DNA of 64,000 bases from Guyparkeria hydrothermalis (GCF_023555385.1 NZ_JAJSED010000001.1:496001-560000), one strand, 5' to 3'; positions 1,836-17,428 are shown, counted from the first letter of the stretch. A program made the numbers and translations. Notes: generated by a model from the letters alone, not told the origin.

Positions 1836-2624
1836 TCAGCCGTGCGTCGTGTCGCGATTGGATCCGCGAAGGCGTCGGCGAAGCAGCCGGGGTAATCGCC
1901 ACAGAAAGCCGGCCAGCAGTCGCAGGTGCATCCAGATCAGCAACCGGTTGTCTCGTGCATAGTGAAAGTGCGAGACGCCATCGGTTTGTGCATCGAAGTA
2001 GCGCACCGGCGCGTCGAGATTGATTGCCGGCACGCCCAGCCAGACCAGCCGAACGGCTGCCTCCGGGTCGAAATCGAACCGGCGCATCCAGTGCGTCTGC
2101 CGCATCACGCGGACCAACGGTTCGAAGGGATAGACCCGCATCCCGAACAGCGAATCGCCGATGCCGCCCCACAGGGTCTCGAGGTTCGCCCAGAAGTTCG
2201 AGATCTTGCGCCCCTGAACCCGCAGTGCCGGGGCGTCTTCAGAGAACACCGGTCGACCCAGGATCATGGCCTCCGGTCGCTGTCGGGCTGCTTCGATGAA
2301 TGCCGGGATCCGCTCGGCCGGGTGCTGGCCGTCGGCGTCCATCGTCAATGCGTGCGTATAGCCTCGTTCCAGCGCGGCCTGGATGCCGGTGAGCACGGCA
2401 GCCCCCTTGCCACGGTTCGTTTCGTGGCGGATCACCCTGAGCTCTGCATGGTCGCTTTCCAGCGCGGCCAGCCGTCGACGTGTCTCCTCATCGCTGCCGT
2501 CGTCGACGATCCAGATGGGCACATCGGCCTGCGTTGCATCGCGTACTGTCGTTTCGATCCGCCGTCCCGGGTTGTAGCAGGGGATCAGGATGAGCGGGCG
2601 AAAGTCATTGATCGACGGCTTCAT
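1836..2624 (-). CDS. Family 2 glycosyltransferase, APE cluster
   Basis: 262 residues counted from the ATG at 2624, which overlaps the stop of the upstream acyltransferase in an ATGA junction; the longer open frame upstream lies inside that gene and is not used. GT2 (GT-A fold) motifs are clear: LIPCYNPG at the N-terminus, VDDGSDEE for nucleotide binding, and MDADGQHP carrying the metal-binding DxD-like motif. The protein resembles dolichol-phosphate-mannose-synthase-like transferases and the glycosyltransferase half of the APE protein ApeJ. The C-terminus is strongly basic, consistent with peripheral membrane attachment. It is the last gene of the halogenase-chorismatase-acyltransferase operon. 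A likely role is transfer of a sugar to the lipid or head group carrying the polyene; donor and acceptor cannot be read from sequence. Confidence 0.88.
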   Translation of the reverse strand: MKPSINDFRPLILIPCYNPGRRIETTVRDATQADVPIWIVDDGSDEETRRRLAALESDHAELRVIRHETNRGKGAAVLTGIQAALERGYTHALTMDADGQHPAERIPAFIEAARQRPEAMILGRPVFSEDAPALRVQGRKISNFWANLETLWGGIGDSLFGMRVYPFEPLVRVMRQTHWMRRFDFDPEAAVRLVWLGVPAINLDAPVRYFDAQTDGVSHFHYARDNRLLIWMHLRLLAGFLWRLPRLLRRRLRGSNRDTTHG

Positions 2625-3382
2625 GCTGCCTCCAGTGCGTGTCGGTAGGCAGTTTGCCACGCACGAGCCTGCGCGCGCGGCTCCGAGCCCGGTGCCGGGG
2701 TATCGGCAAACCGGGTGACGCGCAGACGGACAGGCGACAACGGCGGGCGCCACAACGGCTCATCCTTGCCGAGCAGCGGAGCGTCGTAGCGGAACAGGTA
2801 GGCGTGGATCGGTGCGCGTGCACGCTCGGCCAGCATGAACGCCGCCGGATGAAAGGGGTCGACACCGCCTTTGTCGGTGCCACGGGTACGCGAACCTTCC
2901 GGAAACAGCAGCACGTGACAACCGGCGCGGATCGCCGCCCGGCCGCCTAGCATCATCTCCACCGGACTGTCGTTGGGCAGGTAGCCTGCCAGCCGTGCCG
3001 GTAGGGCGAGAAGCGGGTTTCTCAGTAGCCCGGCGCGCATCACGCAAACGACGTTGGGCGCATGGGCGAGCACGACCAGCGCATCGAGGAGCGCGGGATG
3101 GTTGGCGATGATCACGCCGGGCTGCGCATGCTTAAGCTCGTCGAGCGCTTTGGTATCGAATCGGCAGCCGCCGATCAGGGATAGCCAGCCGCGGTAGGCG
3201 CGCATCGCATGATGGATGACCCGCCGGGTCATTGCCGGTCGGCGCTTGCCCGGGGCGAGTAGCAGGAGCAGCGCCAGTGGGAGCCAGACGATCAGTAACA
3301 GGCCGAGACCGCCGAACCCCAGCAGTAGGGCGAGAATACCCAGCAGTCGGTGCCAGCCCGGTCGTCGGCGGTCACTGCTCAT
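2621..3382 (-). CDS. PlsC-type 1-acylglycerol-phosphate acyltransferase-like protein
   Basis: 253 residues. A hydrophobic N-terminal segment (about residues 12-43, one or two membrane spans) is followed by a PlsC/LPLAT domain. The catalytic HX4D box is seen as NHPALLDAL, and the acceptor-binding box as FPEGSRTRG. The family moves acyl groups from acyl-ACP or acyl-CoA to glycerophospholipid-type acceptors at the inner membrane. Within the APE locus it is a second acyltransferase, different from the LpxL-like one at 13785-14723. It could attach the aryl polyene or an ordinary fatty acid to the anchor lipid. It overlaps the chorismatase gene upstream and the glycosyltransferase downstream by 4 bp each, so the genes are translationally coupled. 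Confidence 0.88.
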   Translation of the reverse strand: MSSDRRRPGWHRLLGILALLLGFGGLGLLLIVWLPLALLLLLAPGKRRPAMTRRVIHHAMRAYRGWLSLIGGCRFDTKALDELKHAQPGVIIANHPALLDALVVLAHAPNVVCVMRAGLLRNPLLALPARLAGYLPNDSPVEMMLGGRAAIRAGCHVLLFPEGSRTRGTDKGGVDPFHPAAFMLAERARAPIHAYLFRYDAPLLGKDEPLWRPPLSPVRLRVTRFADTPAPGSEPRAQARAWQTAYRHALEAA

Positions 3383-4404
3383 AACAGGGCCCTTGAGGCG
3401 TCCGTGCTCGCTCTTTCGTTGCGGGGCTGGCGCAGTGTCGCCTCGATCTCGACCAGCAGGTCCGAGCGACAGATATCCGCCTGCAGATACAGGATTTCGG
3501 CGGGGCCGCTCAGCCAGGCTTTCAGGCGTTCTCGGACCGGAGCGAGATCCTCGGGATGGCGCAGATAGACGCGCAGCAGAGCGAGCCCGTCGAATTCGAA
3601 GGACGAAGCCTGATTGGGGCGTGCAGCATTGGCCTCCAGGCGCACGGTCTCGAGGTTCGCCAGTGTTTCGTCGGTCTGCGCGCGAATGTCGCCCACGTGG
3701 CGGCTTGCGTGCCCGGTAATCGACGCGGTCCCGGAAATGAACAGCCAGTCATGACCGTGGCCGCTGGCCACCGCCGCGCGGGCAAAGATCGGGCTTCTGG
3801 GCCCGTATTCCCGCGGGTAATGGTAGGCGCTTACCTGGCGGGGATTCTCGATCGGCCGTGGCGGCATGTCCGAGGCGAGGAAGAGGAGCTGGCCGCGCGT
3901 TCCCTCGGCACAGCCGAGCGCGCAGGCAGCCGGTGCGCTTTGGGTCGCGTCGCGACCGGCATTGGCAAAGGCATCCGCCCGGCCCTGATTGAACAGGCGA
4001 TAACGTTCCTGTCCCGTGTCTGGGTCGGTGTCGTTGATGGCGGGGAGGTATTGCCAGACGCGCCAGAGATGCGGGGTCCCGGACTGTTCGAGCACGTCGA
4101 ACAGCTGTCGATAGGCGCGCTCGGTGCCGGCCGTCAGCCCGGCGCTTTCATCGAGATCGAACACGCCGAAGGCAAATCCGGGGGCCGTGGCGATGCAGCG
4201 ACCCCGCTCGCTGCTCGTCTCGACGGCGTGGTTCGTGAAAAAGGCCTCGATGGGCTGATCCGGCCCTTCCTGCAAAAGTGCCAAGGGCAGTTCGCCTACG
4301 CAGCCAGTCTGGCCCGGAGACTGCCATCCCCACAGGGACAGGGCACCCAGCAGGGTCGCTTGACCTCGGGAAGCCGTGTCGCGGCTGGTGGGCGCGTCGG
4401 TCAT
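3379..4404 (-). CDS. Chorismatase (XanB2/FkbO/Hyg5-like), 3- or 4-hydroxybenzoate former
   Basis: 341 residues from the ATG at 4404; a longer frame up to 4464 would run into the halogenase gene. The C-terminal half contains the RidA/YjgF-like part typical of chorismatases, with the stretch GTASITGHASRHVGD followed by AQTDETLANLE. Older databases call this family 'pteridine-dependent deoxygenase'. XanB2 of Xanthomonas cleaves chorismate to pyruvate plus 3- or 4-hydroxybenzoate and feeds xanthomonadin and ubiquinone synthesis. Here it stands between the halogenase (7 bp downstream of that gene's stop) and the acyltransferase (4-bp overlap), so it most likely supplies the aromatic starter of the aryl polyene. 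The product isomer cannot be decided by eye. Confidence 0.85.
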   Translation of the reverse strand: MTDAPTSRDTASRGQATLLGALSLWGWQSPGQTGCVGELPLALLQEGPDQPIEAFFTNHAVETSSERGRCIATAPGFAFGVFDLDESAGLTAGTERAYRQLFDVLEQSGTPHLWRVWQYLPAINDTDPDTGQERYRLFNQGRADAFANAGRDATQSAPAACALGCAEGTRGQLLFLASDMPPRPIENPRQVSAYHYPREYGPRSPIFARAAVASGHGHDWLFISGTASITGHASRHVGDIRAQTDETLANLETVRLEANAARPNQASSFEFDGLALLRVYLRHPEDLAPVRERLKAWLSGPAEILYLQADICRSDLLVEIEATLRQPRNERASTDASRALL

Positions 4405-4411: not shown

Positions 4412-5812
4412 TCAGGACTCTTGATCGAGCGGTTGGACCTTGCGGCGATGCGCCCGCCAGTCACGAAGGGAGTGGCGCAAACGCCCGAGAGAGGTGATGT
4501 AGTAGATGCCCTTGAGAATGCCGATCGAGCGCCAGATGGGCGTGCCGCGGTAGATATCGGCGGCCAGCAAGGAGATCAGCGCCTCCTTGACCCGGAAGAT
4601 GTTGCGCGGGCCCATGAACAGATCCCGCATGACCGGCTTGGTGATCCGGTAGATGAACCAGGAGAACTCCTTCGGTCCGTGACGCACCTGGCGGTCGTAC
4701 GCCTTCAGTGCCTTCTTGGCCTGGCTGGGCTCGCGCAGGACCGTGTCGATGGCATCGGCCCCGAACACGCCGCTCTGCATGGCCAGCATCACGCCACTGG
4801 AAAATACAGGGTCGATGAACATGAAGGCGTCACCGACCAGCAGAAAGCGGTCGCCGTGACTGCGGTCGGCCGAGTAGGAGAAATTGCCGGTCGCCTGGAC
4901 GTCACGTACCAGCGTCGCGTCGGCAAGCCGCCGCTTCAGCTCGGGCACGGTGTCGATGTTGTCGAACAGGAACTGTTCCAGCGATCGTCCCTCGCGCGAT
5001 TTCATGTGATAAGGCCAGGTCACCATGCCGACACTGGTCACGCCGTTTTTCAGCGGGATGAACCAGAACCAGCCGTGGTCGAACCAGAACAGGGTGATGT
5101 TGCCTTCTTCCTTGCCCGGATTGCGCTTGGCATTCCGGAAATGACCGAACACCGCCGCGCTGTTGTGCTTGCGACTGCGGCGCTTCCAGCCATGTCGATT
5201 GGCGAGGAAGGTGTCGCGACCGGTCGCGTCGACGAGAAACGCCGCGCGCCATTCGTGACGCCGCTTGTCCTCGTCCTCCGTGGTGACGGTCACGTAATAC
5301 TCGTTGCCTTGCTCGTCGCGACGGGCATTGTCGTGGAAGTCGATATCGACCACCTTCGTACCTTCGACCGTCTGCGCGCCGTCGCGTTCGGCGTTGCGGA
5401 ACAAGATGCGGTCGAATTCGGCCCGTTCGACCTCGTAGGCCTTGGGCATGGACTTGTCCCAGGCATCGCCGAAGTTGTACGGCTGAACGTGGTCGTGGAC
5501 GGGCGAGACGAATTCCGCACCCCATTTGTCGATACCGATCTCGGCAATCTCGTCGGCCACGCCGAGGGTCTCGAACAGCTTGAGGTTGGCGGGCAGCAGC
5601 GACTCGCCAATGTGGAAGCGGGGGTGGTGTTCCTTTTCGGCGAGAACCACGTCGTGGCCCTTCCGCGAGAGCAGGGTGGCGACGGTCGATCCCCCGGGGC
5701 CGCCACCGACGACGAAAACATCGCAAAAACGGCCGTGCCGATCGGCATCGGGGTGGCTGGACCGGGATGCAGTCGGTTCAGTGCTTGGATCGGTCGTGGG
5801 GCGTCCGGCCAT
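4412..5812 (-). CDS. Flavin-dependent halogenase (tryptophan-halogenase superfamily)
   Basis: 466 residues from the ATG at 5812; the frame stays open to 6160 but that stretch is the intergenic promoter region. An N-terminal FAD Rossmann motif GGGPGG lies at residues 36-41. FHIGESLLP at 66-74 is typical of halogenases acting on carrier-bound substrates (PltA/CmlS-like). WFWFIP at 248-253 fits the WxWxIP motif that distinguishes halogenases from flavin monooxygenases. GDAFMFIDPVFSSG follows at 327-340. Xanthomonadins are brominated aryl polyenes and their locus contains a halogenase, so halogenation of the aryl head or polyene is the natural inference. A flavin reductase partner is not encoded nearby. 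First gene of a four-gene minus-strand operon with a candidate promoter at 5883-5911. Confidence 0.88.
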   Translation of the reverse strand: MAGRPTTDPSTEPTASRSSHPDADRHGRFCDVFVVGGGPGGSTVATLLSRKGHDVVLAEKEHHPRFHIGESLLPANLKLFETLGVADEIAEIGIDKWGAEFVSPVHDHVQPYNFGDAWDKSMPKAYEVERAEFDRILFRNAERDGAQTVEGTKVVDIDFHDNARRDEQGNEYYVTVTTEDEDKRRHEWRAAFLVDATGRDTFLANRHGWKRRSRKHNSAAVFGHFRNAKRNPGKEEGNITLFWFDHGWFWFIPLKNGVTSVGMVTWPYHMKSREGRSLEQFLFDNIDTVPELKRRLADATLVRDVQATGNFSYSADRSHGDRFLLVGDAFMFIDPVFSSGVMLAMQSGVFGADAIDTVLREPSQAKKALKAYDRQVRHGPKEFSWFIYRITKPVMRDLFMGPRNIFRVKEALISLLAADIYRGTPIWRSIGILKGIYYITSLGRLRHSLRDWRAHRRKVQPLDQES

Positions 5813-5882
5813 CGTGGCTCCTTGCGTTATTCGGGCTTGTCCTCCGGGAACTCGATCCACGGGAAGCGCGTTTGAGGCCGGT

Positions 5883-5911: not shown

Positions 5912-5955
5912 TATGCTTAGCCGTACAAAGCAAGTGCGCGTCATCGACGCCGCTA

Positions 5956-5975: not shown

Positions 5976-6089
5976 CGGTATATTGAATGTGGCCGGGGGG
6001 CATGCGATAGTCCCGCGCACTTTGCGGACTCAGGCGATAGGGAATCAGGCGTGCCATCGACACCGACACAGCGAGGCGAGACGGGAACG

Positions 6090-6797
6090 ATGGCCGGGTC
6101 CCGGCGCCGGGAAATCGTACGGCGGCTGGCATGCTGCTGGATTCTCAAGGCGGTGGGCACGACCGGAGCAATGAGCCTGTTCTTCGTCGCCTATTTTCAC
6201 CTGCTCGATCAGCCCACGGGCACGCCGACCGTGGTGCCGGCGTCCGTGATCGATCACCTCGTGGGCTTTCAGCCGCAGTTCTTCTACCTCTACGCCTCGC
6301 TGTGGCTGTATGTCTCGCTGGTGCCGGCGATCATGCCGGACCGCCGGTCCCTGATTCGTTACGGGGTCGTGATAGGCATGGTCTGCCTGGTCGGCCTCGC
6401 GGTGTTCTATCTCTACCCGACGCGCATCGAACGCGATCCGTCGCTCTGGATCAACCAGCCCGAATTCGCCTGGCTGAGCGCGGTGGACAGCAGTGGCAAC
6501 GCCTTTCCGTCCCTGCATGTCGCCACTGCCTTGTTCAGCGCCTACTGGCTGGATCGGACGATCCGCGCGCTGCGCATGCCGGCATCGATTCGCTGGCTTT
6601 CGGCACTTTGGGCGCTCGGGATCGTCTACTCCACACTGGCGATCGCCCAGCACGTCATGTGGGATGTCGTGGGTGGCGTGGTGCTGGCCATGGTCGGTGT
6701 CATGCTGAGCGCCCCCTGGGTATTCGTTGGCTCCAACGCGCCGGAGGCCAATGCCGCGCCCATCTCAGTCGCCCGTTTCAGAACTGGCCGGAAGTGA
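6090..6797 (+). CDS. PAP2-superfamily membrane phosphatase / phosphotransferase
   Basis: 235 residues from the ATG at 6090; a GTG at 6051 is an alternative start, and the open frame further up is inside the halogenase gene. Several membrane spans are evident (near residues 20-36, 65-85, 93-112 and in the C-terminal third). PAP2 motif C2 appears as GNAFPSLHVATALF and motif C3 as QHVMWDVVGGV, giving the two catalytic histidines and the aspartate; the C1 motif is not obvious. The arrangement recalls inositol-phosphorylceramide-synthase-like PAP2 proteins. It opens the plus-strand APE operon, ending 4 bp before the ketosynthase start. It may dephosphorylate a lipid-phosphate precursor of the APE anchor or move a phospho-headgroup. 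PAP2 proteins are not part of the core APE gene set. Confidence 0.82.
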   Translation: MAGSRRREIVRRLACCWILKAVGTTGAMSLFFVAYFHLLDQPTGTPTVVPASVIDHLVGFQPQFFYLYASLWLYVSLVPAIMPDRRSLIRYGVVIGMVCLVGLAVFYLYPTRIERDPSLWINQPEFAWLSAVDSSGNAFPSLHVATALFSAYWLDRTIRALRMPASIRWLSALWALGIVYSTLAIAQHVMWDVVGGVVLAMVGVMLSAPWVFVGSNAPEANAAPISVARFRTGRK

Positions 6798-6801
6798 CCA
6801 C

Positions 6802-8016
6802 GTGAATTCTCATTCCCATCTGCCACGTCTTCGGATCCGTCGCTGCACAGCCACCAATGCGGCGGGTACCGGCAATGATGCGTTTCTCGACGCGCTCCGT
6901 GAGCGCCGCAGCGGCCTGGCGCCCTGTGAGTTCCTCGATGCCGATCTGGATACCTACGTCGGTCGGGTCGACGGACTGGAGACGATGCCGTGGCCGGCCG
7001 AGTGGGCAGCCTGGGACTGTCGCAACAATCGTCTCGCCTGGCTGGGTCTCGAGCAGGACGGTTTCGTCGCTGCCGTCGATGACGCGGTCAAACGCTTCGG
7101 GGTCCATCGGGTCGGGGTGGTGCTGGGAACCAGTACCTCCGGGATCCTGCACACGGAACTGGCGTTTCGTGAGCGCGACCCGCAAACGGGGCGCCTGCCG
7201 ACACCGTTGCATTACGCGACCACGCACGAGTTGTCCTCCGCGCCGCGATTCGTCCGTGAGCGGCTCGGTCTCAAGGGACCGATGTACGCCATCTCCACAG
7301 CCTGTTCGTCCAGCGGCAAGGTGTTCGCCAGCGCACAGCGACTCATCGGCAGCGGCATTTGCGACGCGGTGGTAGTCGGTGGAGTCGACACCCTCTGCCT
7401 GACGACCTTGTACGGGTTTTCCTCCCTGGAGTTGACCGCTCCCGAACCGTGCCGTCCGGGTGACCCGGAGCGTAGCGGGATTTCGATCGGCGAGGCCGCC
7501 GGGTTCGCGCTGGTGGAAGCCGATACGGACGACGCCGACGACCTGTGCGTCTTCGGCGTCGGCGAGAGCGTGGACGCATATCACATGTCCACGCCGCACC
7601 CGGACGGCGTAGGCGCGGAGCTCGCCATGCGCCGTGCGCTGGAAGCCGCCGAGATGTCGGCCGACGCGATCGACTACGTCAATCTGCACGGCACGGCCAG
7701 TCGGGTGAACGATGCGGCCGAGGACCGCGCGCTCGAGGCGGTATTCGGCGCGGGGCAGGTCTGCTCGTCGACCAAGGGCTGGACCGGCCACACCCTGGGG
7801 GCGGCGGGCATTACGGAAATGGTGATCGGCGCGCTCGCGGTCGAACACGGCTTCGTTCCCGGCACGCTCAATACACGCCAGGTGGACCCGGCATTCAGTG
7901 CCGACTACCGGCTGGAAAACCGCGCCGGGCGACCGACGCGGGTGCTCTCGAACTCGTTCGGGTTCGGCGGCAATAACTGCAGCCTTCTGTTGGGTCGCAA
8001 GGAGGGTGTGGCATGA
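6802..8016 (+). CDS. Beta-ketoacyl-ACP synthase of the APE type II PKS (ApeO-like)
   Basis: 404 residues from a GTG at 6802, chosen because GGAAG lies 8 bases before it and the preceding gene ends at 6797. The thiolase-fold catalytic triad is complete: Cys168 in STACSSSGK, His296 in VNLHGTAS and His330 in KGWTGHTLGAAG. The C-terminus carries the glycine-rich SNSFGFGGNN. KAS I/II enzymes condense malonyl-ACP with an acyl chain. In characterised APE systems a ketosynthase works as a heterodimer with a chain-length factor, and here the next gene, overlapping by 4 bp, encodes such a partner. Polyene chain elongation is therefore the expected role. A general fatty-acid role is less likely in this setting. 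Confidence 0.92.
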   Translation: MNSHSHLPRLRIRRCTATNAAGTGNDAFLDALRERRSGLAPCEFLDADLDTYVGRVDGLETMPWPAEWAAWDCRNNRLAWLGLEQDGFVAAVDDAVKRFGVHRVGVVLGTSTSGILHTELAFRERDPQTGRLPTPLHYATTHELSSAPRFVRERLGLKGPMYAISTACSSSGKVFASAQRLIGSGICDAVVVGGVDTLCLTTLYGFSSLELTAPEPCRPGDPERSGISIGEAAGFALVEADTDDADDLCVFGVGESVDAYHMSTPHPDGVGAELAMRRALEAAEMSADAIDYVNLHGTASRVNDAAEDRALEAVFGAGQVCSSTKGWTGHTLGAAGITEMVIGALAVEHGFVPGTLNTRQVDPAFSADYRLENRAGRPTRVLSNSFGFGGNNCSLLLGRKEGVA

Positions 8017-8834
8017 AGCTGTCTATCGAGGGCGTCGGGTTCGTCGGGGCCGGGTTGGCCGACTGGCAGGCTGCCGTCGAGGCACTGCGGGCCGATACCT
8101 CGCCCGGGAGCCTGCCGCTGGCCGAACTCGGGCGTGCGCTGAAGGCCGATCGCCTGCCGCGCACCGAACGTCGCCGGGCCGGCAAGAGCGTTCGTCTCTC
8201 GATGACGGCCTGCTGGGAGGCGGTCGAGTCGGCGGGGCTCGATCCGGCGGATCTCCCCATGGTGTTCGCTTCCACGTCCGGGGATACCGAGGTGTTGTCG
8301 CATATCTGCGCGGCACTGGCGGAACCCGAACGGATGGTTTCGCCGACCCGTTTTCACAACTCCGTACACAACGCGGCCTCGGGCTACTGGTCCATTGCTG
8401 TGGGTACGCACCAGCCGGCCACGGCCATTGCGGCTCACCACGAGACTGCTGCAGCGGGTCTACTCGAGGCGGCGATGCAGGCCGTCAGCGAGAATCGGCC
8501 GGTGCTGCTGGTGATCTACGACATCCCGTTCCCCGAGCCGATGAATCAGGCCGAGCCGATCGCCGAGCCGTTGGCCGTCGCCCTGGTCCTGCGGCCGGCG
8601 AGCGCTGATTCGTCGAACCGGCTGAACCTCTCTCTGAGTGGGGAGCACCGTGACGCCACGTCGATGCAGGCAGAACAGTGGTTGGCGCTGTGGGAGGGCG
8701 TACCCGCCGGGCGCATCCTGCCGCTGCTTGAGGCGGTCGCGCGTGACGAGGCACGTGAGATCGCCATGCCGACCGGCGACGGACCCACACTGGTCGTCGA
8801 CTACGAACCGATGCAACGAGGAGAGCAGGCATGA
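8013..8834 (+). CDS. Beta-ketoacyl synthase-like chain-length factor (ApeC-like)
   Basis: 273 residues, much shorter than a full ketosynthase; it matches the N-terminal ketosynthase-like family found as chain-length factor in APE loci. Conserved pieces are the MVFASTSGDTEVL stretch and FHNSVHNAASGYWSIA. No cysteine replaces the KAS nucleophile, so it should be catalytically inactive and act as the structural partner of the upstream ketosynthase. ATGA overlaps join it to that gene and to the following ketoreductase, which favours stoichiometric co-translation. In the E. coli pathway the equivalent pair (ApeO/ApeC) determines polyene length. Identification rests on family appearance plus position and is fairly firm. 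Confidence 0.85.
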   Translation: MKLSIEGVGFVGAGLADWQAAVEALRADTSPGSLPLAELGRALKADRLPRTERRRAGKSVRLSMTACWEAVESAGLDPADLPMVFASTSGDTEVLSHICAALAEPERMVSPTRFHNSVHNAASGYWSIAVGTHQPATAIAAHHETAAAGLLEAAMQAVSENRPVLLVIYDIPFPEPMNQAEPIAEPLAVALVLRPASADSSNRLNLSLSGEHRDATSMQAEQWLALWEGVPAGRILPLLEAVARDEAREIAMPTGDGPTLVVDYEPMQRGEQA

Positions 8835-9571
8835 GCGAGTCCGGGGAATCACCTCGTCTGGCGCTGGTGACGGGTGCCAGCGGTGCGATCGGTGCCGCCA
8901 TTGCCCGCGAGTTGGCCGCCGATGGATTCGATCTGTTGCTGCATGCCAACCGGCAGGTCGACAAGGTCGCGGCACTGGCCGAGGAACTCCAGGCGGCCGG
9001 CCACTCGGCGGAGCCGGTGGTGTTCGATGTCACCGACCCCGAGGCAGTCGAGGCCGTGCTCGAACCGATCGTCAGCGAACGGCCGATCCAGGTGCTGGTG
9101 AACAATGCGGGAATGCACGATGACGGCCCGCTGGCGGGGCTCTCCGCCGCCCGTTGGCGCGCCGTGATCGACGTGTCCCTCAACGGCTTTCACCATGTCA
9201 CTCAGCCGGTGTTGCTGCCGATGATCCGCACGCGCTGGGGACGGGTAATCAACATTGCCTCGGTCAGCGGTCTGATCGGCAACCGGGGACAGACGAACTA
9301 TTCGGCGGCCAAGGCCGGTCTCGTCGGTGCAACCCGAGCGCTGTCGCGAGAAGTGGCGTCGCGGGGCGTGCTGGTCAACGCGGTCGCTCCGGGATTGATC
9401 GAGACAGACATGAGCGAGGGCTCGGCCGCCGCCGACGAAGTGAAGTCGCATGTGCCGATGAAGCGGGCCGGGCGTCCCGAAGAAGTGGCATCCGTGGTGA
9501 GTTTTCTGGCCAGCGATCGGGCGGCCTACGTCACGGGGCAGGTCATTGCCGTCGATGGCGGCATGACGTGA
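8831..9571 (+). CDS. 3-oxoacyl-ACP reductase, SDR family (ApeQ/FabG-like)
   Basis: 246 residues, standard FabG length. The NADPH-binding TGASGAIG is at residues 14-21 and NNAG at 91-94. The catalytic residues Ser144, Tyr157 and Lys161 have the right spacing (INIAS, then YSAAK). The C-terminus ends in AVDGGMT, typical of FabG. It reduces the beta-keto group after each condensation; in APE synthesis this ketoreductase and the two dehydratases give a conjugated chain with no enoyl reduction. It overlaps the chain-length factor by 4 bp and is followed after 7 bp by the deacetylase. No enoyl reductase occurs anywhere in the locus, as expected for a polyene. Confidence 0.93.
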   Translation: MSESGESPRLALVTGASGAIGAAIARELAADGFDLLLHANRQVDKVAALAEELQAAGHSAEPVVFDVTDPEAVEAVLEPIVSERPIQVLVNNAGMHDDGPLAGLSAARWRAVIDVSLNGFHHVTQPVLLPMIRTRWGRVINIASVSGLIGNRGQTNYSAAKAGLVGATRALSREVASRGVLVNAVAPGLIETDMSEGSAAADEVKSHVPMKRAGRPEEVASVVSFLASDRAAYVTGQVIAVDGGMT

Positions 9572-9578
9572 GGAAGAG

Positions 9579-10328
9579 ATGAGCCCCCAATCCGGCGGAA
9601 CGCCGCGTAGCCCGGTGATGCTCAGCTTCGACGACGGTCCGCGCCCCGGGTACACCGATCGGGTGCTGGATGTGCTGAGCACAACCCTCAACGAATCGGG
9701 TGCGCCGCTGCGGGCCGGTTTTTTTGCCCTAGCCGACAATCCTCTCGGCCTGTTTAGACAGCGTCGCGTATTCGCGCCCTACGAACTGTGGACGCGAAAG
9801 GGCAGCATGATTCGTCACCCGCAACTTGCTCGTCGCATCGTCGAGGAGGGGCACTGGCTGGGCAACCACGGAGGTGAGCACTTCTGGCCGCGCTGGCCGC
9901 GGTATCGGGACGAGCGACGGGTGGATGAGCGACTGGCCGAATGGGAGGCCGCTGCCGACGTGGTGGTGCCGGGGTGGCGGGACCAGCCGATGACACCGGC
10001 CCGCGCGCCGTACCTCGTGCGCACAGCCGCCTGGCGACAGGCGGTTACGGCACGGGGCTATCGAGACGTCGCCGGGCTGACCACCGGGGATGCCGTTCCA
10101 CGCGCCGACCGGGACAGCGTCGCGCGCGAGTTGTTCAAGAAGCTCGAACAGCATCAGCGACAGGCAACAGACCTCACTCATCCCGTGATCCTGATCTTCC
10201 ATGACATCCGCGCGGTGACCGCCACCCATCTGGGTGACTGGCTTGTCGCCATCCGGGAAGCCGGGTACCCGCTGGTCGACTTCGATCCGATGAAGTTGCC
10301 GCCGGCAGAGGGCGGTTCGGCAGGCTGA
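9579..10328 (+). CDS. NodB-type polysaccharide deacetylase family protein
   Basis: 249 residues without an obvious signal peptide. The carbohydrate-esterase-4/NodB metal site is recognisable: SFDDGP with Asp18/Asp19, and NHGGEH giving His97 and His101 in an H-x3-H arrangement. RAPY follows as the motif-3 equivalent and LIFHD near the C-terminus as the later catalytic motif. CE4 enzymes remove N- or O-acetyl groups from sugars. It is the last gene of the plus-strand APE operon, 7 bp after the ketoreductase and convergent with the ApeP-like gene 15 bp beyond. A deacetylase is not a core APE gene; it may process an acetylated amino-sugar head group of the pigment lipid. Confidence 0.8.
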   Translation: MSPQSGGTPRSPVMLSFDDGPRPGYTDRVLDVLSTTLNESGAPLRAGFFALADNPLGLFRQRRVFAPYELWTRKGSMIRHPQLARRIVEEGHWLGNHGGEHFWPRWPRYRDERRVDERLAEWEAAADVVVPGWRDQPMTPARAPYLVRTAAWRQAVTARGYRDVAGLTTGDAVPRADRDSVARELFKKLEQHQRQATDLTHPVILIFHDIRAVTATHLGDWLVAIREAGYPLVDFDPMKLPPAEGGSAG

Positions 10329-10343
10329 CGCTATCCTCGGGCG

Positions 10344-10802
10344 TCAATCCTGATCGGCGAGAAAGACCGAGGCGGTTCCCTTCAGCAGACAGGTCTCGGC
10401 CCGCATGAGAGCGAATCCGTAACGGGCCACCTGCCCCGCCATCGTCTGGCATTCTGCCGTGACCGTGAGCGGTCCTTCTATCGTATCCAGCCGATCGACC
10501 GTCCACGACACGCCGTTGAGACGGGTGATCATGCCTTGGCGCGGCTGGTGTTTCTCGGCGGATTCGGCGGCCAGCAGGGCCATGTGCAGCGCCATGGCCT
10601 GTCCCGCGATCTCGATGCCCGCGTGTACCGACAGGCGCTCATCGCGTCGCAGGGGGTTGTCGGGCCGCCGGTGCGCCTCGGTGGTACAGACGATCCGGTT
10701 CTCGTCGCACACACTCACGGCCTCGATCTGACAGACCCCGCCGGCGTGCGGCAGGAGTGCGCAGATGGCGTCGGCCGTGAGCTGGTCGAGGGCAAGGCTC
10801 AT
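10344..10802 (-). CDS. Hotdog-fold 3-hydroxyacyl-ACP dehydratase (ApeP-like)
   Basis: 152 residues. A FabZ-like hotdog protein whose presumed catalytic histidine is His19 in LLPHAGGVCQIEAV; the central segment SVHAGIEIAGQAMALH matches the hot-dog helix. In E. coli APE synthesis ApeP forms a heterodimer with the small dehydratase ApeI, and both are present here. It should remove water from the 3-hydroxyacyl-ACP intermediates. Last gene of the long minus-strand operon, joined to the exporter gene by a 4-bp ATGA overlap, and 15 bp from the convergent deacetylase gene. Confidence 0.83.
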   Translation of the reverse strand: MSLALDQLTADAICALLPHAGGVCQIEAVSVCDENRIVCTTEAHRRPDNPLRRDERLSVHAGIEIAGQAMALHMALLAAESAEKHQPRQGMITRLNGVSWTVDRLDTIEGPLTVTAECQTMAGQVARYGFALMRAETCLLKGTASVFLADQD

Positions 10803-13177
10803 GCGTGGGGCTCCGTGACTTGGTTCCGGTTGCCGTCGGGTTCGCGGGCGAAGACGGCGGCGAGCAGGAAGGCGGCCAGCGCCCCCGGCGCGACCACGGC
10901 ACCGATCGCCTGCAGTACCGGCACGGACGACAGCGAGAGTACGCCGAAGGCGCTCACCGTAGTCGCGTTGGCCAGCGTGAGGGACGCCAGTGTCCGTGCC
11001 CCCATGACATCACGCTGCTCGCGTGGCTGGAAGAAAAGCGCGTAATTGGATCCGACGGCCACCGTCAGCAACAGGCCGATCAGGTGCAGCAAGGTCAGCC
11101 CGCCGCCGGCGAGGCGGTGGCCGGCCAGCACCAACAGTACGGCCAGGGCAATGGGCAGCAGGGTGCGAAGCGTACGGCGAGGCGCGCGCTGGACGGCGAA
11201 AAGCAGCAGAACGATGGCCACGGCGCCCAGCAGCGCCACGGCGAGGGTCGTATCGAGGTAGTGCGCGTAGAGCCGGTTGGACTCGCCGAGCATGTCGACC
11301 AGCGTCGCCGAGGCCACCGGGGCGATCGCCTGGCGAATGGCCGCGATGTCCAGCCTGCCGTCCGAACCTTCCTGCAGCGTCATCATTGCCAACTGACGCT
11401 GCTGCCCGTCCGATGGCAATTGACCGGCCACGGCCAGCCACAACGGCGTGCCCTTGAGGGAGGCGAGGTCCATCGTGGACGAGTTGCGCTGGCGCGCCAC
11501 GTCCTCGACAAAGCCGTCGAGCCGGTCTGCCGAAACGGGCAGATCCGCAAGCGCGGACTCGAGGCGCTGCCGCAAATCCTCAGGCGCCGGGAGGGCGGAC
11601 TGCCGCGCGGTCTGCGTTGCCTTGGAAGGAAGCACGTCGGTCGGTGAGCGGTAACCCGCCAGGGCGCCCGATGCCACCAGTCGATCGAGGATGGGCGTGA
11701 CGCGTTCGGCCTGCTGCAGCGCCGCTTCCCGGTCCCGACCGGTCACCACGACAAGATAGCGCGGGCTTGCTGAGCCGAGATCGTCGCGCAGGCGCGCATC
11801 GGCGGCCTCGAGTGCCGGGTCGATCGGTACCAGGCCCGAGAGCGTGCCCCGCCAGAGTTCGTTCGATCCAAGCACCACGATCACCAGCGCGATACCACCG
11901 GCGACAAGGGCGGGCAGGCGGAATCGACGCAGGGCTTGCAACGGCGAGGCCAGTCGGTAACCCAAGCCGGCAATATCCGCTCGCGGCAGTCGTGAGCCGA
12001 ATATGGGCAGGATGTAGCGCGTGACCAGGGCGGCGGTGATCAGCCCGGTCATCGCGTAGACGCCGATCTGCATCAGGCCCGGAAAGCCGGAGAAGAGCAG
12101 GGCCGCAAAGCCGATCAGCGAGGTGATCAGACCAAGACGAATCGTGGGCCAGTAGTGACGCACCCAGTGGCGCTGACCGGCTTGCGAGTCGTCCGCCTGG
12201 CGCGACTGAACAAAGAAATAGATGCTGTAGTCGATCGCCTCGCCCATCAGCGCGGTGCCGAAGCCGATGGTGATGCCGTGGACCTGGTCGAATCCGAGGG
12301 ACACCGCGGCGATGCCGACCACCACACCGCTTGCGACCGGCAGGAGCCCCGCCAGCAACACGCGGATCGAGCGATACGCCGCCAGCAGCACCACGGTGAC
12401 CAGGAGAAGACTGGCAGCGGAGAACCACGTGACTTCCGTCTTGATCGTGTCGCGAGCGGCGATGGCGAAGGCGGGCGAGCCGGCGATGGTCAGGCTCATA
12501 TCCGACGCAACGGACGCTCTTACGCTTCGGAAGGTGTCTTCTATGCGCGAGTGGGCCTGTGCCAGTGCGTCGGTGTCGGACCCACTGGCAGCGACCTGCG
12601 CGATCAACAGTGTCCTTTCGCCTGACTCGGATGACCAGACGCCGCAACAGCGGGCCGGTCCATCGCCGTCCCGATCATCCAGCAGCGCCAGCATCTCCCC
12701 GGTGGGATCGCGCGGGAACAGCTCAGCCATCATGTCGCCCAGCGGGGAATTGAGCTGTTCGATCGAGTGGCCGATCGCCGCATTCAGCCCGTCGACGCTG
12801 AAACGGTCGGCATCAACGGCTGGGCTGAGCAGGTAGCGGTGTGCGAACAGATGCTCCCGTGCCCGGTCCAGATCCGCCCGGCTGCCGTTCTGCACGGTTG
12901 CGAAGGCGGGGTCGTCGCGCAGACGGTCCTTGAGGAGATTGCTGGCCTCGGCGCGGTTCTCGGACGTACCGCCTTCGATGCCGATCAGGAAGGTTCGGGA
13001 GATGCCGCCTTGCTGGAGTTGTTCGACGAGCAGGCGCTGGGCGTCGGTCGGGGAGGCCGGCAGGAATGCCGACATGTCGGCGGTAAAGCGCGTCTGGGTC
13101 GTGATGCCGATTGCGGCGACGATCACGACCAGCCAGACGGTCAACAGAAAGGGCGCTCGGGCGAATCGCCGTGTCAT
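10799..13177 (-). CDS. MMPL/RND-family exporter of the APE cluster (ApeM/XanF-like)
   Basis: 792 residues in the classic duplicated RND layout. Each half has one leading span, a periplasmic loop of 200 or more residues, and then a bundle of five spans (roughly 225-400 and 625-785). The N-terminus starts with a hydrophobic span and continues into a loop beginning TQTRFTADMSAFLPAS, which is typical of hydrophobe/MMPL exporters found in APE, flexirubin and xanthomonadin loci. Together with the LolA-like protein encoded just upstream it should extract the finished APE lipid from the inner membrane and pass it to the outer membrane. ATGA overlaps link it to the genes on both sides. Confidence 0.9.
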   Translation of the reverse strand: MTRRFARAPFLLTVWLVVIVAAIGITTQTRFTADMSAFLPASPTDAQRLLVEQLQQGGISRTFLIGIEGGTSENRAEASNLLKDRLRDDPAFATVQNGSRADLDRAREHLFAHRYLLSPAVDADRFSVDGLNAAIGHSIEQLNSPLGDMMAELFPRDPTGEMLALLDDRDGDGPARCCGVWSSESGERTLLIAQVAASGSDTDALAQAHSRIEDTFRSVRASVASDMSLTIAGSPAFAIAARDTIKTEVTWFSAASLLLVTVVLLAAYRSIRVLLAGLLPVASGVVVGIAAVSLGFDQVHGITIGFGTALMGEAIDYSIYFFVQSRQADDSQAGQRHWVRHYWPTIRLGLITSLIGFAALLFSGFPGLMQIGVYAMTGLITAALVTRYILPIFGSRLPRADIAGLGYRLASPLQALRRFRLPALVAGGIALVIVVLGSNELWRGTLSGLVPIDPALEAADARLRDDLGSASPRYLVVVTGRDREAALQQAERVTPILDRLVASGALAGYRSPTDVLPSKATQTARQSALPAPEDLRQRLESALADLPVSADRLDGFVEDVARQRNSSTMDLASLKGTPLWLAVAGQLPSDGQQRQLAMMTLQEGSDGRLDIAAIRQAIAPVASATLVDMLGESNRLYAHYLDTTLAVALLGAVAIVLLLFAVQRAPRRTLRTLLPIALAVLLVLAGHRLAGGGLTLLHLIGLLLTVAVGSNYALFFQPREQRDVMGARTLASLTLANATTVSAFGVLSLSSVPVLQAIGAVVAPGALAAFLLAAVFAREPDGNRNQVTEPHA

Positions 13178-13785
13178 GGCGCGTCGTCGCGATGCGTGAT
13201 CTGCATGACGTTCACGTTGCCATTGGTGTGCTCGATGGTGAGACGTTCGACCGTCGCCACTCCATCCTCGAGCCGGCCCCGTACCACGATTCCAGCGATC
13301 CGCTTGGCCAGCGCCTCCGTGCGCGGGTCAAGCTTCAGGCCCCATTGCCCGTCGTCGAAATCCCGGAAAGCGACGTCGTAGTCATGCTGCAAAGCGTCGA
13401 TTCGGCCGTTGAGGATGCCGCGCAGGCTGGATGCGATGGCGGCCCCCTCGGGGTTTTCCGACAGGGAGAGCCGACGCTCGCGACCTTCGGCTTTGAGGAT
13501 CAGCTGGTCACCGTCGAGGGTCAGCGTCTGGGCGCTGGGCTCGGTTTGTTGCTGAACCAGATAGTCGGGCGGCCGATAGCGCAGGATGCCGCGAGACTCG
13601 AGCGGCTTGTCGAGCATGTCGAGGTAGCGGGTCTGCTGGTATTCGGCGCTCGAGGCACCACGCTTGGATAGCGCCTGGGCCAGCTTCTCGAGCGAGGCGT
13701 TGTCCGCCGCGAGGCTGGCGAACGGCAGCGTCGAGAGCAGGGCGAGCCAGAATCCACCCAGGTATCCCAACGAACGACGTCGCAT
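13174..13785 (-). CDS. LolA-like periplasmic lipid carrier (ApeL-like)
   Basis: 203 residues with a signal peptide of about 26 residues (arginine-rich start, hydrophobic core, probable cut after FASLA). The mature part looks like the LolA/LolB beta-barrel domain, with the YQQTRYLDMLDKPLESRG stretch and ILRYRPPDYLV, as in the 'outer membrane lipoprotein carrier' proteins of APE loci. It probably receives the pigment lipid from the MMPL pump and shields it across the periplasm. The start is fixed by a TGATG junction with the acyltransferase stop; its own stop overlaps the exporter ATG by 4 bp. Confidence 0.85.
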   Translation of the reverse strand: MRRRSLGYLGGFWLALLSTLPFASLAADNASLEKLAQALSKRGASSAEYQQTRYLDMLDKPLESRGILRYRPPDYLVQQQTEPSAQTLTLDGDQLILKAEGRERRLSLSENPEGAAIASSLRGILNGRIDALQHDYDVAFRDFDDGQWGLKLDPRTEALAKRIAGIVVRGRLEDGVATVERLTIEHTNGNVNVMQITHRDDAP

Positions 13786-14723
13786 CAGTCGGTTCCTCGT
13801 GTCGACGTGGGACTGTGGGATTCGTCCGAGGCCCAGAAATCGAAGAAGTTGAACCAGTTTGTCGGATGCTCGCGGACCAGCGATTCGAGACGGGCCACAT
13901 AGCGGTCCATGGCGGCGTCGATGGCCCGCCGTCGCTCGCCTCGGGTGATGTCACGGAAATCCGCGATCGGTTCGAAACGGACCTCGTAACGGTTGTCACC
14001 GAGGTAGATGCCGGCCATGACGAGTACCCGCTGTCGCAACAGGGCCGCCATGCGGAACGGCCCCTCGGCAAACGATGCCGGCGCGCCAAGGAACAGGCGT
14101 TCCGCCATCGGATCGGTGGCGAGGCTCCGGTCGGCCAGCATGCCGACCAAATGGCCCTGTCGCAGGCGATGGTCCGCCTCGATCATGGAGTCGATCTGGC
14201 CGAGTTCGATAATGTCACCTGCCCGCTCGGGGTTGATGGCGTTGAGCACGCGCTGGATTTTCCGCGCATTTTCCGGGTACATCATCATGGTGATGGGCAG
14301 GTCGCGTTCGGACCAGGCCGAGGCCCGCAGTGCATCGAAACTGCCGAAATGTGCCCCCACGAGAATCGCCGGCTCGGGTGGGTCGAAACACTCGCGGCCC
14401 ACCACGCGGATATCGAAGGCCTCGAAGCGCCCGTTGAGGAAATAGACCCGGTCGTGGATGGTGCTGGCGAAGTGGTGGATGTGGTCGAACACCTCGGTGA
14501 TACGCGCCGGGCGGCCGTGAACGTGGCCGAGAAACGAACGGCTGGCACGGCGCGCCTCGGGCACGAACAGCAGGAAATACAGGCTGATGGGCACGAGAAG
14601 GTGGCGCGTGATGCGCCGGCCCAGGCGAAGCGACAGGAACACCATCAGCCGCATCAGCCCCTGATGGCCGCGTTCCTTTCCGGACTGCCAGCGAGGTACG
14701 TTCTTGCTCATCGAATCGCTCAC
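13785..14723 (-). CDS. LpxL/HtrB-like acyltransferase of the APE cluster
   Basis: 312 residues from a GTG at 14723 that overlaps the upstream dehydratase stop (GTGA) and has GGGGGA just before it; an ATG at 14711 is the alternative. The protein resembles the LpxL/LpxM lysophospholipid acyltransferase family: an N-terminal hydrophobic segment, then the HX4D box in GAHFGSFDALR, and further on GMLADRSLATDP, the equivalent of the family's second motif. In APE systems such an acyltransferase is thought to link the polyene to the glycerol- or sugar-lipid anchor. It follows the ApeI-like gene and precedes the LolA-like gene with a 1-bp TGATG overlap. In E. coli the comparable domain is fused to a glycosyltransferase; here they are separate genes in different operons. 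Confidence 0.86.
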   Translation of the reverse strand: MSDSMSKNVPRWQSGKERGHQGLMRLMVFLSLRLGRRITRHLLVPISLYFLLFVPEARRASRSFLGHVHGRPARITEVFDHIHHFASTIHDRVYFLNGRFEAFDIRVVGRECFDPPEPAILVGAHFGSFDALRASAWSERDLPITMMMYPENARKIQRVLNAINPERAGDIIELGQIDSMIEADHRLRQGHLVGMLADRSLATDPMAERLFLGAPASFAEGPFRMAALLRQRVLVMAGIYLGDNRYEVRFEPIADFRDITRGERRRAIDAAMDRYVARLESLVREHPTNWFNFFDFWASDESHSPTSTRGTD

Positions 14724-15076
14724 GATTCCCCCGCCGGCTCGTCGCAACAGCCGGTTTCCACCAGCAGTTCGAGCACCAGTGTCGGCTCCTTGTCCGGCTG
14801 CCGGGCCATGACCCGAAGCTTTCCTCGGCCGCGGGGTGTCACGGCGTAGTCCACGGTCAGGGGGGCGCCTGGCCTGGCCGGGGAAACAAACTTCGCCTGG
14901 CGGATCGCACCGTGTTCAGGCGTCGATTCCGTGTGACGGGCGAGGGCCGCGATCGCCCAGTCGATCAGAAGTGCGCCAGGAAGTAGCGGGTTGCCGGGGA
15001 AATGGCCGGCGAATACCGGTTCGTCCGCGTGGGGCGTCCATTGCGCCAGTTGCACGGGATTCGAGGGCGCGGCCAT
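14720..15076 (-). CDS. Small hotdog dehydratase (ApeI/FabZ-like)
   Basis: 118 residues. The FabA/FabZ signature is seen as GHFPGNPLLPGALLIDW, with the catalytic histidine at His25. It is shorter than housekeeping FabZ (about 145 residues) and matches the ApeI half of the ApeI/ApeP dehydratase pair. It should dehydrate 3-hydroxyacyl-ACP intermediates to the trans-2-enoyl stage. It starts inside the stop codon of the AMP ligase (TGATG) and ends overlapping the GTG of the acyltransferase. The cysteine pair near the C-terminus (TGCCDE) is a curiosity of this copy. Confidence 0.87.
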   Translation of the reverse strand: MAAPSNPVQLAQWTPHADEPVFAGHFPGNPLLPGALLIDWAIAALARHTESTPEHGAIRQAKFVSPARPGAPLTVDYAVTPRGRGKLRVMARQPDKEPTLVLELLVETGCCDEPAGES

Positions 15077-16491
15077 CAGGATGCCTCTTCCTGTCGCGTG
15101 TCGGGCGCGGCATCGAGCAGCCGATGGAGGTTTTCGCGAGTGACCTTGCCGGTGGCGTTGACCGGCAGGCGGTCCACCAGCAGCAGCGGTCGGGGCAGGA
15201 ACACCGGGTCGACCTCGGCGCGCAGCGCTTCACGCACCTCGTCGGCGGTCAGGTCCGGTGCACAGACGATCGCCGCGAGCCGGGTGTTCGCATGTGCCTT
15301 GTCCATGGCCGGATCGAAAAACAGTCCTTCGACGACGCCATCGATGTCCTGCAACTTGGCATTGAGGAATTCGATCGAGCTGCGCTTGCCGGCGATATTC
15401 ACCTGATTACTCTCGCGCCCGAGCAGGTGAAACCGCCGCCCCTGTAGAGGCTCGATCCGGTCGCCGAGACGGATCGGGGTTTCGATATGACCCGATTGCG
15501 CTATCGTGCTGTCCCCCTCGTGGCGGAACTCGATCCCCGGCATCAGCGACCAGGCAGCATCGCGGGTGGGTCGGCGGACCGCGATCTGGCCAGTCTCGGT
15601 GCAGCCGTAGATCTCGTGCAGAGCGCCGCCGAATGCCTGCTCCGCCCGGCGTGCCAGTGCCGGCTCGAGCGGTGCGGTCGCGCAGAGCACCCGCTCGCAG
15701 GCCGGCAGCTCGATTCCGGAGGCCAGCAGGTGATGCAGGTGATAGGGCGTGGTCACCAGCATCCGCGGGGCAGGCAGCCGCGACAGGGCATCGGCGATGT
15801 CGGTGGGGAAGAATGGCTGGTCGATCGAGAGGATCGCCCCGCCGCATACGGCGGCGAGAATCAGCGACTCGAAGCCGTACATGTGTTGCGACGGGACCGT
15901 TCCCAGCACATGCAGCGGCTCGCCGGCAGGCGAGGAGAGCTGGTCGAGCGCTTCTCTGGCGGCATGCGCATTTGCGATCAATCGTCCCCACGTCTTGTCG
16001 TGGCCGCAGGGCCTGCCGGTACTGCCGGAGGTGAACACCCGGGCGACTACGGTATCGGCCGCGATGTGTGGCATGACGTCTGGGCCGTCGAATCCCGACG
16101 TGCCCTGCAGCCGGGGAATGGGGACGTGCGGCAGATGCGCGGCGATGCGGGAATCGATCACATCCCCGGCCCCACGCAGCAGGACGGTGTCCGGATGGCT
16201 CTCGAGCAGGTCGTTGATGGCGCCCGGCGTCTGACTCGCCGGCATCAGATTGATGTGATTGCCGATCATGCCGGCGAGCAGACCGACGAGGAAGTCGTCA
16301 CGGCGGGCGGCCAGGTTGATCAGATAGCGGGGGCGCTCAGGCAGATCCCGTAATCGGTCGACCAATACCCCCGCAGCGACGAGGAGGTCGGCCGCGGTCC
16401 AGTCGTGTTCCGTCGAATGGAGAATGGTGCGATCAAGCCGGTCGTCGGCCAGCACCGGGAGCTGATCGGGAACGCGATTCGAATGTGTCAT
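15076..16491 (-). CDS. Aryl/acyl-AMP ligase (ApeH-like)
   Basis: 471 residues from the ATG at 16491, which overlaps the stop of the membrane-protein gene (ATGA); a frame open to 16725 is not used. ANL-superfamily motifs are present: the P-loop-like FTSGSTGRPCGHDK, the A5 motif EIYGCTETG, and the C-terminal A10 lysine Lys449 in NATGKVTREN. The enzyme should adenylate the hydroxybenzoate starter made by the chorismatase and load it on an acyl carrier protein, as ApeH does in E. coli. The protein is somewhat short for the superfamily (usually 500-550), as APE ligases generally are. Confidence 0.88.
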   Translation of the reverse strand: MTHSNRVPDQLPVLADDRLDRTILHSTEHDWTAADLLVAAGVLVDRLRDLPERPRYLINLAARRDDFLVGLLAGMIGNHINLMPASQTPGAINDLLESHPDTVLLRGAGDVIDSRIAAHLPHVPIPRLQGTSGFDGPDVMPHIAADTVVARVFTSGSTGRPCGHDKTWGRLIANAHAAREALDQLSSPAGEPLHVLGTVPSQHMYGFESLILAAVCGGAILSIDQPFFPTDIADALSRLPAPRMLVTTPYHLHHLLASGIELPACERVLCATAPLEPALARRAEQAFGGALHEIYGCTETGQIAVRRPTRDAAWSLMPGIEFRHEGDSTIAQSGHIETPIRLGDRIEPLQGRRFHLLGRESNQVNIAGKRSSIEFLNAKLQDIDGVVEGLFFDPAMDKAHANTRLAAIVCAPDLTADEVREALRAEVDPVFLPRPLLLVDRLPVNATGKVTRENLHRLLDAAPDTRQEEAS

Positions 16492-17141
16492 TTTCGCTCT
16501 CCCGCCATCTGAAGCATGTGGCGCCGATAGGCGCGCACGGCAGCGATCGGTCCGGTCCAGTCCTCCCGCGGCAATACCCACAGACGCACCATGTACTCGC
16601 CGGCAAACATGGCGGCCACCAGCGGGAAGGTCGCGTAGACCGCGTAGGCGGACCAGAGCGAGGGACCTAATGCTGCCATCAGGGCGATCGAGAGAATGGC
16701 GTTCGCGATGAAGAACAGTCCCCAAGCCCAGGTGATCTGGCGGGTATAGCGACGCAGGGGTGCGGTTAAGTGATCGTGCACCTGGGCGGCGAAACGGGCG
16801 CAGGCCGGCTGCTGATCGCCGCGTAAGCTGCCGAGGAAGAACACGGCGAGCGCAAGATTTACCCCGAGATGCTGCACCAGATAGTAGAAGGCAATGTGCG
16901 TGTCGAGGACATCGGCGAGGCCGAGCGAGCTCAGGCCGAGCAGGACAGCCAGGAGCAGGGTGGTGGGCCAGGCGAGTCGCGGTTGCATCGCGAGAACGAT
17001 CACGCCAACCAATGGCGCGAGCGCGAGTATCGCCATGCCCGGGCCGATCGGCGACTGGTCACCAAGCCAGTGCGCGAGGCCCAGGTTGGCTACCAGCAGC
17101 GCCCCGATGAGCCAGCGCCTGACCGTTGGCCAGCTCGGCAT
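16488..17141 (-). CDS. COG4648-type integral membrane protein of APE clusters
   Basis: 217 residues from the ATG at 17141. Highly hydrophobic with about six spans: three in the first 60 residues, one near 65-90, and two in the C-terminal half. The HLGVNLALAVFFLGSL stretch and a basic region between spans, DHLTAPLRRYTRQI, are recognisable features of the COG4648 family. This membrane protein recurs in APE loci between the ACP and the AMP ligase, as here. Its function is not established; topology suggests a membrane scaffold or a transport role. It sits 5 bp after the ACP gene and overlaps the ligase by 4 bp. Confidence 0.78.
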   Translation of the reverse strand: MPSWPTVRRWLIGALLVANLGLAHWLGDQSPIGPGMAILALAPLVGVIVLAMQPRLAWPTTLLLAVLLGLSSLGLADVLDTHIAFYYLVQHLGVNLALAVFFLGSLRGDQQPACARFAAQVHDHLTAPLRRYTRQITWAWGLFFIANAILSIALMAALGPSLWSAYAVYATFPLVAAMFAGEYMVRLWVLPREDWTGPIAAVRAYRRHMLQMAGERK

Positions 17142-17146
17142 GAGGA

Positions 17147-17428
17147 CTACTTGGTTCGGTTCTCGGCGATGAAGCGGCATAGATTGCGCAGGGAGGCGAA
17201 GATCTGCTCGTTGCGCTCGTCGTCGGAACGCAGGTTCAGGCCGTAGCGCTTGGAGACGACCAGTGCGATTTCGAGCACGTCGATCGAATCCAGCCCGAGT
17301 CCGTCGCCAAACAGCGGCGCATCGGGATCAATCTCGTGAGGCGTCTCGTCGAGGTTGAGGGCGTCGACCAGATGAGCGGCTACTTCCGGGATCAGGGCGT
17401 CGGTTTGTGTCTCGATGTTGTCGGTCAT
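17147..17428 (-). CDS. Acyl carrier protein (ApeF-like)
   Basis: 93 residues. A carrier-protein helix bundle with the phosphopantetheine serine Ser48 in GLGLDSIDVLE. The surroundings are acidic, as expected, but the C-terminus (LCRFIAENRTK) is basic. It should carry either the aryl starter or the growing polyene. It lies 45 bp downstream of the ketosynthase gene and 5 bp upstream of the membrane-protein gene. APE loci characteristically encode two ACPs, and this is the one next to the COG4648 protein. It needs a phosphopantetheinyl transferase; the only one in the window is acpS at 33026. Confidence 0.9.
   Translation of the reverse strand: MTDNIETQTDALIPEVAAHLVDALNLDETPHEIDPDAPLFGDGLGLDSIDVLEIALVVSKRYGLNLRSDDERNEQIFASLRNLCRFIAENRTK

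Follow-up and report, generated by a model that had tools for sequence, protein, structure and literature searches.

Organization of the aryl polyene cluster

The window analysed here comprises 64,000 nt of Guyparkeria hydrothermalis (GCF_023555385.1, NZ_JAJSED010000001.1:496001-560000), and all coordinates are counted within it. A complete aryl polyene (APE) cluster of the xanthomonadin type, predicted to make a yellow pigment, spans positions ~1836-18968. Its plus-strand operon contains, in this order, the genes for a PAP2 membrane protein, a ketosynthase (KS), a short chain-length factor (CLF), a ketoreductase (KR) and a CE4 deacetylase. The PAP2 and CE4 proteins are the subject of this study. 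PAP2 and KS are separated by 4 bp (PAP2 end 6797, KS start GTG 6802) and KR and CE4 by 7 bp (KR end 9571, CE4 start ATG 9579); KS/CLF and CLF/KR each overlap by 4 bp (ATGA). A preliminary description of this DNA had placed the two genes before and after KS-CLF-KR with these gaps, and all its coordinates were confirmed. The PAP2 reading frame differs from the mechanically listed open reading frame (ORF) at 6131.

To the left of PAP2 a divergent minus-strand operon encodes a family-2 glycosyltransferase (GT2), a PlsC-type acyltransferase, a chorismatase and a halogenase, the latter two being typical of xanthomonadin loci. The minus-strand genes to the right of CE4 run from an ApeP-like gene through MMPL, LolA, LpxL-type, dehydratase (DH), AMP ligase and ApeG-like genes to an acyl carrier protein (ACP), a second KS and a second ACP (Table 1). 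Thus, the APE core set (KS adjoining a short CLF, KR, DH, ACP, AMP ligase) was found together with the transport and tailoring set (MMPL exporter, LolA-like carrier, ApeG-like protein, acyltransferases, glycosyltransferase). The profiles used for this cluster also recognise the APE cluster of E. coli.

Table 1 Features of the APE cluster and predicted products (positions within the window)
Feature	Position	Strand	Remarks
PAP2_3/AUR1-like integral membrane protein, predicted head-group phosphotransferase	6090..6797	+	ATG start, 235 aa, ~6 transmembrane segments; Pfam PAP2 2e-9, PAP2_3 8e-9
Ketosynthase, ApeO/ORF17-like, PRK09185 family	6802..8016	+	GTG start
Short CLF, ApeC/ORF16-like	8013..8834	+	
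KR, FabG-like	8831..9571	+	
CE4 (NodB-homology) deacetylase	9579..10328	+	Pfam Polysacc_deac_1 7e-11; intact catalytic residues; no signal peptide seen
GT2, subfamily tracking PAP2	1836..2624	-	
PlsC-type acyltransferase	2621..3382	-	
Chorismatase, XanB2/FkbO-Hyg5-like (hydroxybenzoate starter)	3379..4404	-	
FAD-dependent halogenase	4412..5812	-	
ApeP-type dehydratase	10344..10802	-	No Pfam/NCBIfam match; relatives' profile weakly matches E. coli ApeP, plus position
MMPL/RND exporter, ApeM-like	10799..13177	-	
LolA-like periplasmic carrier, ApeL-like	13174..13785	-	
LpxL-type acyltransferase	13785..14711	-	
Dehydratase, ApeI/FabA-like	14720..15076	-	
AMP-dependent acyl-ACP synthetase, ApeH-like	15076..16491	-	
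ApeG-like membrane protein, COG4648 type	16488..17141	-	
ACP	17147..17428	-	
Second ketosynthase, ApeR-like	17474..18739	-	
Second ACP	18732..18968	-	

At the edge of the cluster, a tRNA-Ser gene (19099-19189, minus strand) immediately adjoins the gene for the second ACP. The Rfam scan gave tRNA only and no other RNA, and the scan for promoters and terminators a single weak site on the minus strand. No chorismatase was detected in two otherwise similar clusters (L030, L031), so their starter acid may come from elsewhere.

Linkage of PAP2 and CE4 to APE loci

The relatives g1 and g4 have the same gene order, PAP2-KS-CLF-KR-CE4, with PAP2 identities as low as ~45%. The family is represented by 27 genomes. 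Fifteen encode both the CE4 and the CLF of the window type and 10 encode neither; in the remaining two the only CLF is a divergent one, and a window-type CE4 is missing. In view of the conserved order and the joint absence of CE4 and CLF, an operon formed by chance was rejected.

Searching named genomes with nothing but the PAP2 alignment yielded 124 relatives, and 80 loci were kept. They belong to Beta- and Gammaproteobacteria, Acidithiobacillus, Campylobacterota and Verrucomicrobia; the nearest named genomes are those of Guyparkeria and Halothiobacillus. According to profile annotation, at least four core APE genes lie beside PAP2 in 59 of the 80 loci. CE4 was found in 52 of these 59, and in 41 of 48 if the family of the window is left out. 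Thus, the two genes are not absent from all related loci, a possibility raised in the preliminary description, and its assignment of PAP2, CE4 and GT2 to the APE pathway is supported. The sequences show that PAP2 and CE4 belong to a complete APE cluster, have intact catalytic residues and accompany such clusters across phyla.

Twelve PAP2 loci have zero or nearly zero APE genes nearby. For ten of them the genome encodes an APE-type CLF at another place, four of these CLF matches being weak (E 5e-6 to 3e-8); for the other two it encodes an APE-type MMPL protein. AUR1-like PAP2 proteins away from APE genes were seen in Acidithiobacillus and Campylobacterota (L072, L075, L079, L086, L093, L120). 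In a class sample of 369 genomes, an APE CLF was present in 84, and all strong PAP2 matches fall in such genomes. PAP2-bearing clusters are thus a minority type.

Neither gene is present in the complete or near-complete APE loci of E. coli CFT073 (L150) and of two clusters from the same family (L151, L152). This rules out a core function in APE synthesis and agrees with the earlier placement of both enzymes outside the core pathway. In general, PAP2 and CE4 are accessory APE enzymes, and their linkage to these loci is real.

CE4 deacetylase

The cluster CE4 has the hallmarks of its class: the DD pair, the HxxxH metal site, RxP, the catalytic His and the CE4 fold. Residues D18, D19, H97, H101, R142 and H208 are invariant in 38 sequences covering two subfamilies. 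The window type carries the motif RAPYL and an extra FAPYELW...KGSM stretch. In most other PAP2-bearing loci the CE4 has RAPAGLRNP instead and is only ~25% identical to the window type; this common type has MMPL as its neighbour in 37 of 45 loci and directly precedes PAP2 (<150 bp, same strand) in 12. A strict profile of the window type matched 5 of the 369 genomes. That CE4 is nearly confined to the family of the window was ruled out, as a broader profile and locus annotation gave the second subfamily in the same role. Two distinct CE4 enzymes in one slot argue that deacetylation is needed. The cluster CE4 is predicted to remove the acetyl group from an amino sugar.

The closest folds are peptidoglycan, chitin and xylan deacetylases. 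This would fit one or both genes being passengers, with CE4 as a peptidoglycan or exopolysaccharide deacetylase and PAP2 as a housekeeping phosphatase that share the operon by accident. We consider this very improbable: the linkage recurs across phyla, CE4 is missing where the cluster is missing, the genome encodes two ordinary PAP2 proteins at other places, and the slot is filled by two different CE4 subfamilies. The cluster CE4 is the sole PF01522 protein detected in the genome. HpnK, the deacetylase of hopanoid synthesis, is of the YdjC type and not a CE4 enzyme.

The freed amine could also serve for N-acylation by the LpxL-type enzyme, comparable to LpxC and LpxD in lipid A. The polyene or a fatty acid would then be amide-linked, and PAP2 would act separately. 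An LpxL-type acyltransferase is indeed encoded in the same cluster, and most PAP2 loci keep both CE4 and LpxL. Judging from the title of a work cited in PMC8253772, xanthomonadins are classically aryl-polyene esters, and an amide linkage appears improbable to us, though less so than passenger genes.

Several CE4 variants were observed. At L042:3573-10456, a relative of the window type with 43% identity is accompanied by genes for a squalene-hopene cyclase, a GT2 and an LpxL-type acyltransferase, and no APE core is present; this is possibly a locus for a glycolipid or hopanoid head group. Pfam identified a fusion of CE4 with a SAM methyltransferase in an APE cluster (L036:14992-16506), and L037:3647-5161 is of the same length. 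The methyltransferase fusions of CE4 and PAP2 were examined and gave no hint on the substrate. In genome G021 the window-type CE4 is present in an additional, fragmentary copy (L033:4554-5010).

PAP2 as candidate head-group transferase

The C1 phosphate motif of phosphatases, K(x6)RP, was found in none of 101 PAP2 family members, and neither was PSGH. All 101 have PSLH at C2, and 96 have the form STx4QHxxxD. Thus, the cluster PAP2 lacks the marks of classical PAP2 phosphatases such as PgpB and LpxE. It combines the PAP2 fold with the C2 motif, the C3 histidines and the Asp, as in transferases of the AUR1/SMS type. Two other PAP2 proteins of the same genome carry both K(x6)RP and PSGH; with these two canonical proteins available, a housekeeping role of the cluster PAP2 was rejected.

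Among solved structures of the PDB, AUR1 was the only match of a 41-member PAP2 profile (E 0.001). The AlphaFold2 model (pLDDT 89) was compared using VIA-align. The top matches were an SMS-related protein and AUR1 (Z 14.4, 14.1 and 13.7; 191-195 residues; rmsd 3.9-4.5), followed by LpxE and PgpB-type phosphatases (Z 11.7-12.3; 149-164 residues; rmsd 2.9-3.3). The transferases therefore lead by ~1.4-2.7 Z units and ~30-45 aligned residues, with a weak sequence match beneath. Counts of basic residues place the N-terminus, loops L2 and L4 and the C-terminus in the cytoplasm, so that H143 and H188 are predicted on the periplasmic side.

Motifs and modelled fold favour a head-group phosphotransferase rather than a phosphatase. 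The preliminary description had left the choice between removal and transfer of a phosphate; transfer is favoured, and removal has lost ground. As a lipid phosphatase, PAP2 would act on a phosphatidate made by PlsC through polyene acylation of glycerol phosphate, and glycosylation by GT2 and deacetylation by CE4 would lead to a phosphate-free amino-glycoglycerolipid. The PlsC-type gene adjoins GT2 in the divergent operon, the Pfam domain is named PAP2, and LpxE and PgpB come next in the structural ranking. Nevertheless, this route seems unlikely, although it is the least unlikely of the alternatives weighed here: C1 is missing from all members and present in the other PAP2 proteins of the genome, transferases give the best structural matches over the whole length, and the active site, predicted to be periplasmic, would be across the membrane from the PlsC and GT2 steps, which are presumed to be cytoplasmic.

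In an APE locus of Rhodoferax a methyltransferase domain is fused to PAP2 (L095:4041-5444). In another locus the PAP2 ORF runs on into an ApeG-like (IspA-like) membrane domain (L083:9932-11251). This fusion and the position of ApeG close behind PAP2 in several related loci suggest that PAP2 and ApeG act together.

Glycosyltransferase subfamily

A tree of 42 APE-associated GT2 sequences was calculated by a quick method and has some long branches; the sequences of PAP2 loci came from the PAP2 search and those of PAP2-less loci from the CLF search. One long, supported branch parts nine GT2s of PAP2-less loci from the 33 others. PAP2 loci supply 31 of these 33 and none of the nine, and the PAP2 label changes three times on the tree, compared with ~10 times in shuffles. 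The two exceptions on the PAP2 side are L049 and the GT2 domain of E. coli ApeJ. One GT2 subfamily appears to track PAP2; given the unequal sampling, the quick tree and the long branches, this association is suggestive only.

Proposed synthesis of the head group

We propose that PAP2 and CE4 are head-group (anchor) enzymes of the APE lipid, an amino-sugar lipid bearing the polyene, to which PAP2 would add a phospho-head-group after export. We give this proposal about an even chance. On the cytoplasmic side GT2 would attach an N-acetyl sugar, whose identity is a guess, to a lipid acceptor. CE4 would deacetylate this sugar, and polyene and fatty acid would be added on the same side by the two acyltransferases, of LpxL and PlsC type. 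After export by the MMPL protein, PAP2, at its predicted periplasmic site, would transfer to the glycolipid a phospho-head-group taken from a phospholipid; our guess for the donated group is most likely phosphoglycerol from phosphatidylglycerol, or else phosphoethanolamine. The LolA-like protein would carry the finished lipid to the outer membrane. The order of the steps is likewise a guess. An amino-sugar or sugar-phosphate lipid made with the help of glycosyltransferase and deacetylase had been suggested in the preliminary description; the gene set points to an amino-sugar lipid, whose acetylated sugar and head group we infer.

Both halves of this scheme have precedents. HpnI and HpnK add GlcNAc to a lipid and then free the amine by deacetylation, although this lipid is a different one, a hopanoid (PMC12583986). 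In Bacteroides, the AUR1 homologue BT_1522 was identified as candidate phosphoinositol dihydroceramide synthase (PMC9246714). AUR1 and the SMS-related protein share the PAP2 fold with the cluster protein over ~190 residues, and the PSLH and ST...H...D motifs of AUR1 align with those of PAP2. In contrast, identities are 12-18%, and no ceramide or inositol genes were seen in the window cluster. A preprint reportedly describes a galactosamine-phosphate-glycerol unit in the APE lipid of Xenorhabdus, which would match an amino sugar combined with phosphoglycerol. As the related E. coli cluster has neither enzyme, we take it as a lead and not as support.

Several observations weigh against the proposal. 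No CE4 was detected in seven of the 59 PAP2-bearing APE loci; some of them end at contig edges, which makes gene absences uncertain. PAP2 adjoins CLF without CE4 in L034 and L035, and CE4 is present without PAP2 in L048 and L155. Foldseek gave no match of the PAP2 model below E 0.001, so the likeness to transferases rests on ranking, coverage and motifs combined. The sequence match to AUR1 is weak (E 0.001), and canonical phosphatases have the same fold (Z ~12). Finally, the tree places the GT2 domain of E. coli ApeJ with those of PAP2 loci although its cluster has no PAP2; the link between GT2 and PAP2 is thus not exclusive.

Comparison with known systems and implications

The arcuflavin (arc) clusters of Azoarcus sp. 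BH72 resemble the window cluster in chorismatase, halogenase, glycosyltransferase, LolA, exporter, acyltransferases and a KS with a short KS-like partner, and the polysaccharide deacetylase arcN lies near the exporter (PMC3949708). They differ in being split over two loci and in the lack of PAP2 from the published gene table, where arcN was listed in 2014 with its function unstated (PMC3949708). The cluster for a xanthomonadin-like pigment of Lysobacter enzymogenes shares KS, the CLF-like ORF16, ACP, KR, two DHs and the LolA-like carrier, but has no halogenase, and its ORF15 is named a dolichyl-phosphate mannose synthase homologue; deacetylase, phosphatase or glycosyl are not mentioned in that paper (PMC3691225). 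The E. coli CFT073 cluster is similar in core, acyltransferase and transport functions (PMC8253772). Its ApeJ unites GT2 and acyltransferase, with the GT2 part on the tree side of the window; PAP2 and CE4 are both lacking.

A deacetylase in an APE locus is therefore already known (arcN). In a search of an open-access library, no paper describing PAP2 in APE loci and no pairing of the terms aryl polyene and PAP2 were found. The earlier expectation that this gene set could define the membrane anchor of aryl polyenes was too strong: there are APE clusters with neither enzyme, arcN was annotated before, and a preprint in the reference list of PMC8253772 is credited with solving the APE lipid of a relative.

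The results tie three gene families, PAP2, CE4 and GT2, to the head-group or anchor step of APE lipids across several phyla, and the expected reaction of PAP2 shifts from phosphate removal to head-group transfer. The gene-by-gene predictions are within reach of lipid mass spectrometry. More tentatively, and at somewhat less than even chances, a widespread class of APE clusters might build its outer-membrane anchor by an AUR1-like PAP2 protein that takes the head group from an ordinary phospholipid to give an amino-sugar phosphodiester lipid; such clusters would have a GT2 subfamily of their own and a deacetylase from either of two CE4 subfamilies. If true, bacteria would have, for a polyketide pigment, an equivalent of the head-group transfer known from sphingolipids. 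The recurrence of the PAP2-CE4 gene set gives an indication of how the APE pigment may be anchored in the membrane.

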